From Euryarchaeota archaeon TMED192 (GTDB lineage Archaea > Thermoplasmatota > Poseidoniia > Poseidoniales > Thalassarchaeaceae): a DNA stretch of 35,183 bases. The stretch spans positions 1 through 35,183 of the forward strand of contig NHIP02000009.1 in assembly GCA_002170775.2 (NCBI GenBank), given 5' to 3'. The notes beneath the pieces are model-generated. The model searched no databases. It had not been told where the DNA came from and saw only the letters and a list, made by a program, of their open reading frames with translations. The position numbers and the translations under genes are program-made. This document shows, one piece after another, positions 3 to 3,975 of the stretch; position 1 is the stretch's first letter, and each line of letters begins with the position of its first letter.

Positions 3-3000
3 GATGATGAAAGAGGAGGTTATGACCATGCTGGTGAGTGGCAACCAAGGCATTCTCTTGAGATTCATGATGAGTGGTGGAATGATTGGTCCAGGGACTC
101 CAATCAAAACATGATTGACGACAGGCTTGAATGGCTACTTGAACAACCAACCGAGTTCTATTCCAATTGGTGGAGAATGGCAGATGCCGGCAATGCAAGA
201 GTATTCATCGATTACGATCACCATCCCTCTTCAGCAGACGTCGAGGCGATTGAAGAACTGGGCGTGGAAATTACAATGCGTCCAATATATCTGGACAGTT
301 TGATTGCAACAGTCCCCATTGACCTTCTCCATCACGAATCACCAATCTTCGATCTATCTGGAGTCGTTATGCTGGAGGATCTAGGTTTGGCTGAGACCCA
401 CATGAATCAAGCAGCCCCAAATATGGGCGTTGATCAAGTATGGTCTCAATATGGCTATGATGGAACTGGAGTCACTATCGCTGTACTCGATACTGGGGTG
501 AGAGGGGATCATGAGGGCCTCAATGATTTAGATGATGAGATTACGCTAGGTTGTGATCAACCCGATCCAGATCCGTTTAATCCAACTCCAATAACAATTG
601 ATTGCGATCCGAAGATATCTGCTTTCTACGATGCTGTAATCACCGACTCCGAGCGACCAGCAAGTGAGTCATACGATTCAGGGACTCATGGCTCACATGT
701 TGCGGGCATTGCTGCTGGTACAGGCGGTGGACAAGAGGCACCCGACGGCTCGAAGTATGTGGGCGTCGCACCAGGCGCATGGGTGGTCAATATCCTCGCA
801 TGTTGTGAGGGTGATATCCAGGACGTAATAGAAGGCGCGCAGTGGGCAATTGAGAACAAGGATTCCAAAGGCATAGACATCCTAACCTCTTCACTTGGCG
901 AGCAGCAGTTTGAGATTCATTTCGATAATGACGGCTCATCAGCATGGAGCCAGCAGATGGATGCTGTCGCAGCATCGGGAATCATCACGTTCCTTTCAGC
1001 TGGAAATGAATTCGGTGGCGCAACACTGGCCGGTTGCAATACTATTGATAGCCCAGGCGATGCAAATCTCCCCATCACAGTCGCAAGCCTGGACAAGGAT
1101 CTGGGTCTGGCTATCTATTCAAGCAGGGGCTATACATCTGATGGACGCGTAAAGCCTGATGTTTCTACGATAGGGTCGAACATAATGGCTCCTGATGCCG
1201 CTACATCTGATGGCTACACAAGTAAATCCGGAACCAGCATGGCAACCCCTCTCATGGCAGGCATTGCTGCTTTGATGGTCGAGGCAAATCCTGATATCGA
1301 CCATGAACAGGTCAAGTCTATCATTAGCGCTCTGTCGATAGAGCGCGATATCCAACTCCTCGATGATCCCGGATTTAACGACTGTAGCGTTTTGGAAACC
1401 CGTCCAGATAACGAGTTTGGATACGGTCAGGCAGATCCTCTGGCGTTTGTACAGGCAGCAGGTTCGATAGACTCCTCATTGAACGTTTCAATGAATATTG
1501 AAACATTGGAGCATCTGGGCAACGAGACCAGGATATCCGGGACTTCGACCGGCGGAGTTCCAGGCGTCGGATTCGTAGAGGTGATGGTTGGAGGCGATGA
1601 TTGGAATCAGGCAGCCGACCTATCTTCTGCAGGGGACTGGTCGTCTTGGAACATCAAGTTGGACCCACATACTGAGTCAGGTAACTCGACAGTGTATGCC
1701 CGGCTGGTTATCAGCGACGAGAGGATGTCTCCCGTGGATGCCCGAAGAGTAGTTCTCGTGGATGAACTAGCGAGCTCCAGCGGAGGCGCAGGGGGCCAAT
1801 CATCAATTGGAGCATATGTATTCTTCATCCCCTTCCTAGCGACACTTGCACTTCTCGGATGGACCGCCCTGAGGGAAGACTGGTCCACAAGCCCCGCTAA
1901 GAAGCAAGAAAATGAGGATGAAGATAGCGAATCAACACCCTCTTCAAATTGGCGAGAAGATCCACTCGGATCATTTACGGGCGGGATTAGGAAATTCTCG
2001 GCCGAGATACGACGAGGAGGACCTCTTACCGAGAATGGAACTAAGAGGCTTCTGACGCTATGTATTCTTTACTTTGCTCAAGGCCTTCCATGGGGTTTTG
2101 CCAGCGTCACATTCGCAGCATACTTGGTTGACAACGGGGTTCCGATTGGGGATATAGCCATACTATTTGCTACAGTCGCGTTGCCGTGGACATTCAAGTG
2201 GATATGGGGTCCAGTCGTAGATGCAGTAAACATACCCCGATACGGTGCTAGAAGACAATGGGTGCTGATAGCCCAAGCTGGTATGGTCGTCACACTAGGC
2301 ACTCTACTCCTAGTGCCCGACTTGAATGCTGAGATAGACCTGGTAACACGCTTATTGTTCGTGCACAACATTTTCGCTTCCCTGCAAGATGTTGGCACCG
2401 ATGCACTGGCGGTGGAGATACTAGAGCCAAACGAGGTGGCGAAGGCTAACGGATTCATGTTTGCAGCCAAGAGGGCAGGAATCATCGTCGGCGGTGCAGT
2501 ACTCGGGGTATCAGTCACTCAAATCGGCATCAGCGGCGTGATTGCCATTCAACTCGTACTCCTTTCGCTCATATTGCTGGTCCCACTTACCATGGTTGAG
2601 AGGCCGGGCGTCAAATTATTTCCTTGGTCCAAGTCAGATGAGAGTCATTGGGAGGATGATTCTGATGGCCAAGGCGACACTCAGGCCATTGACAATAGCG
2701 ACTCTGAGATGCCCTCAGAGCCATGGCTGGAAGAGCAGAGATTCAAGCTCGCCCGGAAAGTCGGATTTACACTGGACAGTAGAAAAATATCCCTATCCGC
2801 ATTCTTTGCGATAGCGGCTCTTTCGTTGTGGGTACTTGGATTCGCAATAGATGTCTTCACCATCGATTTCAAGATGGGTGATAACATCAGACAGATTACA
2901 AATCCGGTGAGTTACCTTTTCTTCCTCTTATCATTCGCCGCCTTTGCTCTTTCCGCCAGGGGGATGCTCGGATCAAGCGATTACCGTGTGACGAATCCAT

Positions 3001-3737
3001 TAGCACGTCTCCCCGAGGGGACAAGACGAGGTGTAGCTGAAACCTCATTCTATCTTACAAAGGCGTTCTCTGTCCGTTCTGCTCTGCTATTGATTGGACT
3101 CTGCTTGCTCTCTGAGCTCTACATATTCGTGGGCCCAATTGTGATTGACATCTTCATTAACGAAGCAGGCTGGTCCCAAGCGAAATATAACGGAATAGTC
3201 GGGGGCATCGTAGTGTTCGGCGCGCTAATCGGCCAAATTATCGGAGGTCTACTGGGAGATAGATTCGGCGTCAGGAGAGTTGCAATGGTTGGATTTACTG
3301 TATTGGCCCTTGCAAATGCTTGCTTCGCACTTCTAGAACCCCTCTGGTCCAACACCTCGATAATGACTGTTTACCTTATTGCGCAAGCGTTCGTTGGCGG
3401 GATGGCATGGATATGCATTATTTCGCTTAGTATGAGGCTGACATGGAGCAAGGTAGGGGGAACCCAATTCACAGCATACATGTCTCTGTTCAATCTTTCA
3501 GGCGTCTTTGCATACACTCTAACAGAGAGGATGATTTCGGTATTCGACTATAAATCTGCTATCTATATCGGTGCTGCTTTGACCCTCGTAACAGTGTTCA
3601 TGCTTGTATTCATTGATGAGGACGAGACTGACAGGATCCTTGAGAGCGAAGACACACATTCAGAAGATGAGCCAGAAATATTCGAACCAATCCTAGGCGA
3701 TGTGATGATCGATGAAAAACCCGCTCCATCAGTTTGA
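3..3737 (+). CDS. Subtilisin-like (S8) protease fused to an AmpG-like MFS permease; 5'-truncated at window edge
   Basis: Frame 3 is open from the window edge (DDERGGYDHAGEWQPRHSLEIHDEWWNDWSRDSNQN-MIDD...), so the ATG at 111 is probably internal. S8 triad motifs: AVLDTGVRGDHEG (Asp), YDSGTHGSHVAGIAAG (His), SGTSMATPLMAG (Ser), with LSAGNE for the oxyanion Asn. A TM follows (SIGAYVFFIPFLATLALLGWTAL), then a multi-TM region starting TKRLLTLCILYFAQGLPWGFASVTFAAYLVDNGV, typical of AmpG-like MFS. Stop TGA at 3735-3737. Confidence 0.88.
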   Translation, partial: DDERGGYDHAGEWQPRHSLEIHDEWWNDWSRDSNQNMIDDRLEWLLEQPTEFYSNWWRMADAGNARVFIDYDHHPSSADVEAIEELGVEITMRPIYLDSLIATVPIDLLHHESPIFDLSGVVMLEDLGLAETHMNQAAPNMGVDQVWSQYGYDGTGVTIAVLDTGVRGDHEGLNDLDDEITLGCDQPDPDPFNPTPITIDCDPKISAFYDAVITDSERPASESYDSGTHGSHVAGIAAGTGGGQEAPDGSKYVGVAPGAWVVNILACCEGDIQDVIEGAQWAIENKDSKGIDILTSSLGEQQFEIHFDNDGSSAWSQQMDAVAASGIITFLSAGNEFGGATLAGCNTIDSPGDANLPITVASLDKDLGLAIYSSRGYTSDGRVKPDVSTIGSNIMAPDAATSDGYTSKSGTSMATPLMAGIAALMVEANPDIDHEQVKSIISALSIERDIQLLDDPGFNDCSVLETRPDNEFGYGQADPLAFVQAAGSIDSSLNVSMNIETLEHLGNETRISGTSTGGVPGVGFVEVMVGGDDWNQAADLSSAGDWSSWNIKLDPHTESGNSTVYARLVISDERMSPVDARRVVLVDELASSSGGAGGQSSIGAYVFFIPFLATLALLGWTALREDWSTSPAKKQENEDEDSESTPSSNWREDPLGSFTGGIRKFSAEIRRGGPLTENGTKRLLTLCILYFAQGLPWGFASVTFAAYLVDNGVPIGDIAILFATVALPWTFKWIWGPVVDAVNIPRYGARRQWVLIAQAGMVVTLGTLLLVPDLNAEIDLVTRLLFVHNIFASLQDVGTDALAVEILEPNEVAKANGFMFAAKRAGIIVGGAVLGVSVTQIGISGVIAIQLVLLSLILLVPLTMVERPGVKLFPWSKSDESHWEDDSDGQGDTQAIDNSDSEMPSEPWLEEQRFKLARKVGFTLDSRKISLSAFFAIAALSLWVLGFAIDVFTIDFKMGDNIRQITNPVSYLFFLLSFAAFALSARGMLGSSDYRVTNPLARLPEGTRRGVAETSFYLTKAFSVRSALLLIGLCLLSELYIFVGPIVIDIFINEAGWSQAKYNGIVGGIVVFGALIGQIIGGLLGDRFGVRRVAMVGFTVLALANACFALLEPLWSNTSIMTVYLIAQAFVGGMAWICIISLSMRLTWSKVGGTQFTAYMSLFNLSGVFAYTLTERMISVFDYKSAIYIGAALTLVTVFMLVFIDEDETDRILESEDTHSEDEPEIFEPILGDVMIDEKPAPSV

Positions 3738-3975
3738 GGAAGTCGAAACCGACTTCCTAGTATTCTCAAAGACAGTATGCGGATACTGTGTGGCCGCAAA
3801 GAGGCTCCTCGAAGGCTTTCGCATGACATACACTGAAATCAATCTAGATGATGATGTCCAGCTACGATCTGACTTGATAATGGCGACAGGGCATAGAACC
3901 GTACCAATCATTTTCGATCTTAGAGAGGAAGCAGTATTCGTCGGAGGATTCGATGAACTGAAGAGATATCTCTAA
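3712..3975 (+). CDS. Glutaredoxin-like protein
   Basis: 87 aa with FSKTVCGYCVAAKRLL (CxxC), TVPIIF (cis-Pro) and GGFDELKRYL; overlaps the upstream CDS by 26 nt in another frame. Confidence 0.85.
   Translation: MKNPLHQFEEVETDFLVFSKTVCGYCVAAKRLLEGFRMTYTEINLDDDVQLRSDLIMATGHRTVPIIFDLREEAVFVGGFDELKRYL

Follow-up and report, generated by a model that had tools for sequence, protein, structure and literature searches.

In the 35,183-nt window analysed here (the whole stretch of DNA, with which contig C7 of genome G000, Euryarchaeota archaeon TMED192, begins), the first gene encodes on one polypeptide a subtilase of peptidase family S8, a beta domain, a transmembrane (TM) helix and an AmpG-like permease of the major facilitator superfamily (MFS). 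Computational comparison across related genomes shows that both halves and the linker between them are under purifying selection, the join being kept as protein, and that at least five ectodomains, the protease among them, are interchangeable on one permease type. The fusion belongs to a larger, apparently undescribed family that spans the Poseidoniia. There is about an even chance that, as a putative surface-tethered protease with a permease on the same chain, it couples proteolysis to peptide uptake.

The uncultured archaea of Marine Group II rank with the most abundant ones in the surface ocean and are believed to feed on protein. It is poorly known how peptides enter these cells after cleavage outside. 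Substrates could not be assigned to Marine Group II transporters in an earlier survey (PMC6864105). With cutter and carrier on one chain, the question of peptide entry becomes directly testable with one gene.

A subtilase and a permease in a single frame

An earlier note on this DNA had proposed an uninterrupted frame at 3–3737 joining an S8 domain with intact Asp/His/Ser motifs to an AmpG-like MFS region, with a Ser/Gly-rich linker and one TM helix at about 1801–1875 in between. The plus-strand frame is indeed open without break from base 3 to the stop codon at 3735–3737, and a Pfam domain search located both halves in it. The features up to the permease are the following, residue numbers being those of the protein encoded in the window:

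3..3737, + strand: S8 subtilase, beta domain, TM helix and AmpG-like MFS permease in a single frame, 1244 aa in the window
195..389, + strand: probable subtilase propeptide, alpha/beta, I9-like, from its position and the strands predicted by AlphaFold2 (AF2)
462..1427, + strand: peptidase S8 catalytic domain, aa 154–475 (Pfam PF00082, E 1.4e-44)
489..491, + strand: catalytic Asp163 (D200 in the full-length protein), kept in 68/68
687..689, + strand: catalytic His229 (full length H266), kept in 68/68
1005..1007, + strand: oxyanion Asn335 (full length N372), kept in 68/68
1236..1238, + strand: catalytic Ser412 (full length S449), kept in 68/68
1482..1757, + strand: beta-sandwich-like domain between protease and membrane, about aa 494–585 (AF2 strands; predicted local distance difference test, pLDDT, about 66–84)
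1815..1874, + strand: anchor TM helix, outside to inside (hydropathy; AF2 helix with pLDDT about 90)
1875..2027, + strand: charged cytoplasmic linker, variable but coding (dN/dS 0.08–0.17)

PF00082 scored 153 bits against a gathering score of 21.8, and the domain matched 9ues/3afg in the PDB (E 4e-36). The catalytic Asp, His and Ser and the oxyanion Asn occur in this family's order and are invariant in all 68 S8 domains, fused and standalone, so the motifs are intact as proposed, and the anchor helix lies where one TM had been placed. The Ser/Gly linker was recovered in part: a short Ser/Gly stretch is found only after the beta-sandwich-like domain, before the anchor. The AF2 model of the fusion, computed with a 40-row alignment, is usable for the anchor, the beta domain and the MFS part (blocks mostly at pLDDT 70–93). 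As the alignment is shallow, the S8 part is badly modelled.

The window begins at a contig end, that of C7, which leaves the frame open on its 5' side. A second contig from this genome, C14, overlaps C7, with one mismatch within the first 5.4 kb, and extends upstream to give a 1281-aa fusion at L008:9017–12862 (+ strand). The N-terminus of this protein, MRRDPPGKLMTTSRRAVALLILATLLIPLTAS, is a Sec-type signal peptide, which completes the topology put forward in the earlier note: protease outside, a TM helix leading in, and an MFS bundle starting inside. This arrangement also agrees with the topology rules.

Positions 1–34993 of the window (about 35 kb of C7, nearly the whole window) are duplicated as the end of C14. 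When both ends were compared, the last 6.1 kb showed 222 mismatches, mostly within the last ~1.2 kb of C14. The duplicate is a redundant assembly of this metagenome-assembled genome. On C14, 5' of the fusion (L008:180–6579), there are 191 scattered single N positions, like a strain consensus.

Conservation of the fusion

A contig scan turned up about 48 full-fusion loci among Marine Group II genomes. An intact fused frame is present in 67 of the 148 genomes of Thalassarchaeaceae (marine group IIb, the family of the window's genome), and a standalone S8 orthologue of about 660–726 aa in 13. A phylum sample of 390 genomes added five from a second family within this class (f3, genus g24; probably Marine Group III, MGIII) that encode fused proteins of 1168–1206 aa with 41–46% identity over both halves. 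The suggestion that the architecture may be common in the lineage thus held. Homologues consistently split into two genes, which the earlier note had named as speaking against the fusion, were not what was found: 67 genomes have the fused protein against 13 with a standalone one, and the standalone proteins are nested inside the fused ones. The distant relatives listed for family f16 are frames of roughly 270–570 aa, mostly about 400 aa and therefore too short for an S8-MFS fusion. Outside archaea, the permease relatives among the matches listed were two Phycisphaerae proteins only, without ectodomain.

Against close relatives, the ratio of nonsynonymous to synonymous substitution rates (dN/dS) is 0.003–0.017 for the S8 domain, 0–0.008 for the N-terminal half of the MFS part, 0.02–0.04 for its C-terminal half and 0.08–0.17 for the TM helix and linker.

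A permease type with exchangeable ectodomains

Homologues of the permease half occur in 209 of the 319 genomes of the order. A secreted N-terminal domain followed by a TM helix precedes the permease in 108 of the 113 distinct permease proteins retrieved. The ectodomain is S8 in 56, bMYWG in 26, bCTHTD in 18, an M28 peptidase in 5 and a cupredoxin in 3, bMYWG and bCTHTD being labels coined in this analysis for two unnamed beta-rich domains. The remaining five comprise two plain paralogues from Marine Group IIa (MGIIa), two proteins of planctomycetes and one that a contig end truncates. Pfam confirms the M28 and plastocyanin-type ectodomains. Zinc-ligand motifs are present in the M28 ectodomains (with GSHHD in place of GAHHD in L123), and the cupredoxins keep the His/Cys/His/Met copper-ligand set. 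The bCTHTD proteins begin with a lipobox-like GC.

The domain bMYWG also exists as a standalone protein of about 250–350 aa in most Thalassarchaeaceae, including the window's genome (G000:C13:55165–55698), so that the permease can acquire type-I ectodomains already present. As the tail of a type-I protein lies inside, it fits a permease whose N-terminus is inside without topological conflict, and varied ectodomains can therefore be captured. The AF2 model of bMYWG is all-beta, with a mean pLDDT of 52, too poor for a fold search. Homologues of about 900 aa were considered as decayed proteases; this was rejected, their ectodomain being a different conserved beta domain, bMYWG. The two plain MGIIa paralogues (L187 and L188, in genomes G137 and G019) are AmpG-like permeases of ~450 aa without ectodomain; G019 also has a cupredoxin-ectodomain form, L127.

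Swap in place, fission and recombination

The Thalassarchaeaceae locus is flanked on one side by a riboflavin cluster (RibB, RibL, RibE, RibH, TrxB) and on the other by glutaredoxin, a hydrolase, w4558 and an H+-pyrophosphatase. The S8 and bMYWG forms share these flanks; bMYWG replaces S8 at the same locus. The bMYWG forms group as a single clade within the S8 forms in the permease tree (clade support 92, enclosing branch 100), and at least eight ectodomain changes are required over the whole tree. M28 forms of genus g8 have the same downstream neighbours as the S8/bMYWG locus. A strict swap in place is not claimed for them: although the neighbours are the same, their permease belongs to the 12-TM clade, and the whole gene may therefore have been exchanged. 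No conserved locus was found for the MGIIa forms, the neighbours of which vary with the ectodomain type.

Standalone proteases occur at two places inside the fused ones in the S8 tree; fission happened at least twice. In two genera (g4 and g5), the S8 part has been replaced at the same locus and survives as a separate membrane-anchored protease. In g4, this standalone S8 stands in tandem with a paralogue of 38% identity, the counterpart of L003 (G000:C15:6780–8159), a TM-anchored S8 paralogue, also 38% identical, in the window's genome.

The trees of the two halves are strongly incongruent. Constraining the permeases to the S8 grouping cost 245 log units (approximately unbiased test, p-AU 5e-5), and the reverse constraint, S8 domains in the permease grouping, cost 133 log units (p-AU 1e-47), the p-AU values being descriptive only because the groups were picked after seeing the other tree; the effect size is large. 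The simplest reading is that the S8 and permease halves have recombined.

The neighbouring gene in the window is

3712..3975, + strand: glutaredoxin gene (Pfam PF00462, E 2e-14), overlapping the end of the fusion gene by 26 nt

A glutaredoxin gene adjoins the fusion locus in most Thalassarchaeaceae, in opposite orientation in genus g8; at MGIIa loci this link was not found by sequence. Some genomes have a GHMP-kinase-like gene (APLRVDLAGGWTD) between RibB and the permease gene (L016:4996–5865, L056:4480–5328), which is absent from the window's genome. Two standalone S8 loci call for a remark. At L074:7938–9054 (UBA605), fascin-like repeats and a masked stretch downstream of the gene look like contamination, and L147 (G203:C30:10124–11902) has an in-frame TAG, possibly a pseudogene or an assembly error.

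Relationships of the permease half

2037..3608, + strand: AmpG/PAT-like MFS permease with 14 predicted TM helices (Pfam, profile match, Foldseek)
2379..2417, + strand: PAT-type signature SLQDVGTDALAVE in TM4, with Q, D, V and D invariant in 31 homologues of five ectodomain types
2793..2957, + strand: two extra TM helices in the central loop (hydropathy, homologue alignment, AF2)

Pfam matches at aa 685–1217 are MFS_1 (E 6e-32), BT1 (8e-11) and Acatn (2e-9), all above their gathering scores; with 41.7 versus 22.0 bits for PF03092 and 37.1 versus 23.7 for PF13000, the permease belongs to the BT1/Acatn-type (PAT-like) group. No ATP-binding cassette (ABC) transporter domain is among the Pfam matches of the fusion chain. 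The two-bundle MFS fold and the QDxxxD motif in TM4 are both present, and the TM4 signature is common to AmpG and SLC33A1. When a profile of 31 permease cores was compared with the PDB, AmpG (E 5e-20) and SLC33A1 alone were found at E < 1e-5. The best four PDB matches in Foldseek are AmpG structures (E 4e-15 to 3e-8), SLC33A1 coming later among other MFS carriers.

AmpG is thus the nearest relative, and the earlier note's "AmpG-like" is right in that sense. The scores of the NCBIfam AmpG families are nevertheless below both cut-offs (125.6 versus 350 bits for TIGR00901, 53.5 versus 756 for NF008238). The second-best NCBIfam family is the RhtX/FptX siderophore permease TIGR02718, likewise below its cut-off (87.1 versus 356 bits), with E-values of 1e-24 for the window permease and 9e-34 for the cupredoxin form; the AmpG family outscores it in every ectodomain type tested. 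Since AmpG comes first but far under its cut-off, and RhtX/FptX second, "PAT-like permease" is a fair name.

The MFS part has 14 predicted helices because of the two extra ones in the central loop. Thalassarchaeaceae have this pair in their S8 and bMYWG forms, as apparently do the f3 forms; the M28, cupredoxin, bCTHTD and MGIIa permeases lack it.

Proposed function and alternatives

The signal peptide would export the N-terminal subtilase, which would be kept outside the cell. The beta domain would lead to the single TM helix that anchors the protease and brings the chain into the cytoplasm, where the charged linker would connect to the 14-TM AmpG/PAT-like permease with its N-terminus inside. 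The protease would then cut extracellular protein beside the permease, and short peptides could be imported before diffusing off.

Several observations point to such a coupling, which the earlier note had also suggested. Two unrelated peptidases, S8 and M28, are borne by the same permease type with their active sites intact. AmpG carries muropeptides. For its fellow relative SLC33A1, transport of oxidised glutathione, which is a peptide, has been reported (PMC12889552, preprint), and the known cargoes of both relatives are thus peptide-containing molecules. The host lineage is described as degrading protein and secreting S8 and M28 peptidases (PMC6864105, PMC6336850), and its subtilase genes are highly transcribed (PMC9723583). 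From this circumstantial evidence we infer protease activity, the direction of import, a peptide substrate and their coupling.

Other observations weigh against coupled proteolysis and uptake. The permease scores below the AmpG cut-off and resembles the RhtX/FptX siderophore importers, and the alignable glutathione-contact residues of SLC33A1, Tyr225 and Asn229, are not kept in it. The same permease type bears a cupredoxin and two beta domains without known enzyme activity, partners that a pure proteolysis-uptake model leaves unexplained; as some partners are not proteases, an accessory role of the ectodomain is conceivable. The S8 protease and the permease are unlinked in genera g4 and g5.

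It could be, although this is unlikely, that the ectodomain and its TM helix mainly stabilise, protect or position the permease, the protease cutting whatever passes, so that the choice of ectodomain matters little for transport, as with GLMP for MFSD1. GLMP shields MFSD1 against degradation, and a single chain engineered from the two is laid out like the fusion (PMC11252000); the ectodomains of the family are, moreover, chemically unrelated, some being beta domains without known enzyme. Yet all 68 S8 domains keep the catalytic residues, at dN/dS near 0.01, the M28 ligands and the His/Cys/His/Met ligands of the cupredoxins are kept as well, and a mere stabiliser would not have to preserve an active site. 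The plain MGIIa paralogues show that such a permease can do without an ectodomain.

Somewhat less likely still, the permease may import something other than an ordinary peptide, either a ligand resembling a siderophore or a metal complex, or a thiol/disulfide peptide that the neighbouring glutaredoxin would handle; the ectodomains would free or prepare this ligand from proteins. The rank of TIGR02718 as second-best family, its better match to the cupredoxin form, the retained copper ligands and the overlapping glutaredoxin gene, a neighbour in most Thalassarchaeaceae, would all fit. Against this, AmpG outscores the siderophore family in all types tested and leads both the profile and the structure searches, and the glutaredoxin link is missing by sequence at MGIIa loci. 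Glutathione was rejected as substrate, as the alignable SLC33A1 contacts are not kept; the substrate is therefore probably other than glutathione disulfide.

Export and processing, with the permease exporting a substrate or presenting a protease that matures a secreted peptide, is improbable. The model for it is TagC, a subtilase-transporter that processes a signalling peptide and whose protease is presented only if the transporter is active (PMC3743828). No conserved candidate for a signalling precursor was found at the locus, and the M28 and cupredoxin variants would be a poor fit for a maturase. TagC is, besides, of the ABC type and serves export; the AmpG and RhtX/FptX relatives, in contrast, are importers. 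Finally, an assembly or gene-calling artefact fusing two genes, to which the position of the window at a contig end and the two overlapping contigs might point, is rejected with hardly any doubt, since both contigs agree, 67 genomes of the family and five of a second family have the same frame, and the linker is under purifying selection.

Beyond the coupling of proteolysis to uptake in the S8 form, the finding gains in interest over the first account, since several outer modules, the protease being one, are interchangeable. Tentatively, Poseidoniia may possess a platform in which a conserved PAT-type permease has its outer module swapped by recombination, retooling uptake without new transporters. 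It is perhaps the ectodomain (endoprotease, exopeptidase, copper protein or putative binding domain) that sets the chemistry feeding the permease, a view to be held with equal reserve. If true, the exchange of ectodomains while the carrier is conserved would clearly exemplify modular evolution across a membrane, for which the natural fused, split and swapped versions offer built-in controls.

Comparison with known systems

AmpG and SLC33A1 (PAT, 2.A.1.25-type MFS) resemble the fusion in fold, profile, the (S/T)QDxxxDxxxxxxL motif and the GRRxxW loop. From AmpG, the fusion differs by its sub-cut-off score, its signal peptide, its ectodomain, its anchor TM helix and the two central-loop TM helices; we know of no murein in its host lineage.

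The S8 and M28 ectodomains would belong to the secreted peptidases of Marine Group II, which PMC6864105 and PMC6336850 list as extracellular; in their available parts, nothing is said of a permease that shares the chain. The standalone paralogue L003 consists of an S8 domain, a C-terminal region, a TM helix and a short cytoplasmic tail, without permease. The S8-MFS architecture is not mentioned in the available part of a survey of archaeal fusions (PMC11237513), supplements aside, and the literature searches made here yielded no description of it. The earlier note knew of no characterised protein with this architecture; a characterised subtilase-ABC precedent of another kind does exist. Dictyostelium TagB/TagC likewise have a subtilase and a transporter on one polypeptide, and the protease was shown on the surface (PMC3743828). 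They are eukaryotic, have a signalling role and belong to a transporter superfamily different from the MFS of the fusion.

The closest working analogue, by analogy only, is MFSD1-GLMP, a lysosomal MFS uniporter of dipeptides that is paired with a beta-sandwich ectodomain carried by a single TM helix (PMC11252000). GLMP and MFSD1 are absent from the reported sequence matches and from the 50 fold matches shown, no direct comparison having been made. The layout is alike, with a single-pass ectodomain and its TM helix beside the MFS core, but MFSD1-GLMP is encoded by two genes and GLMP is not an enzyme, whereas the fusion is one gene with a protease ectodomain. The analogue shows that peptide transport is possible with this layout, and also that the ectodomain may do no more than protect the carrier. 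A transporter with an attached ectodomain is of an already known kind; what appears to be new is the combination of S8 and MFS.

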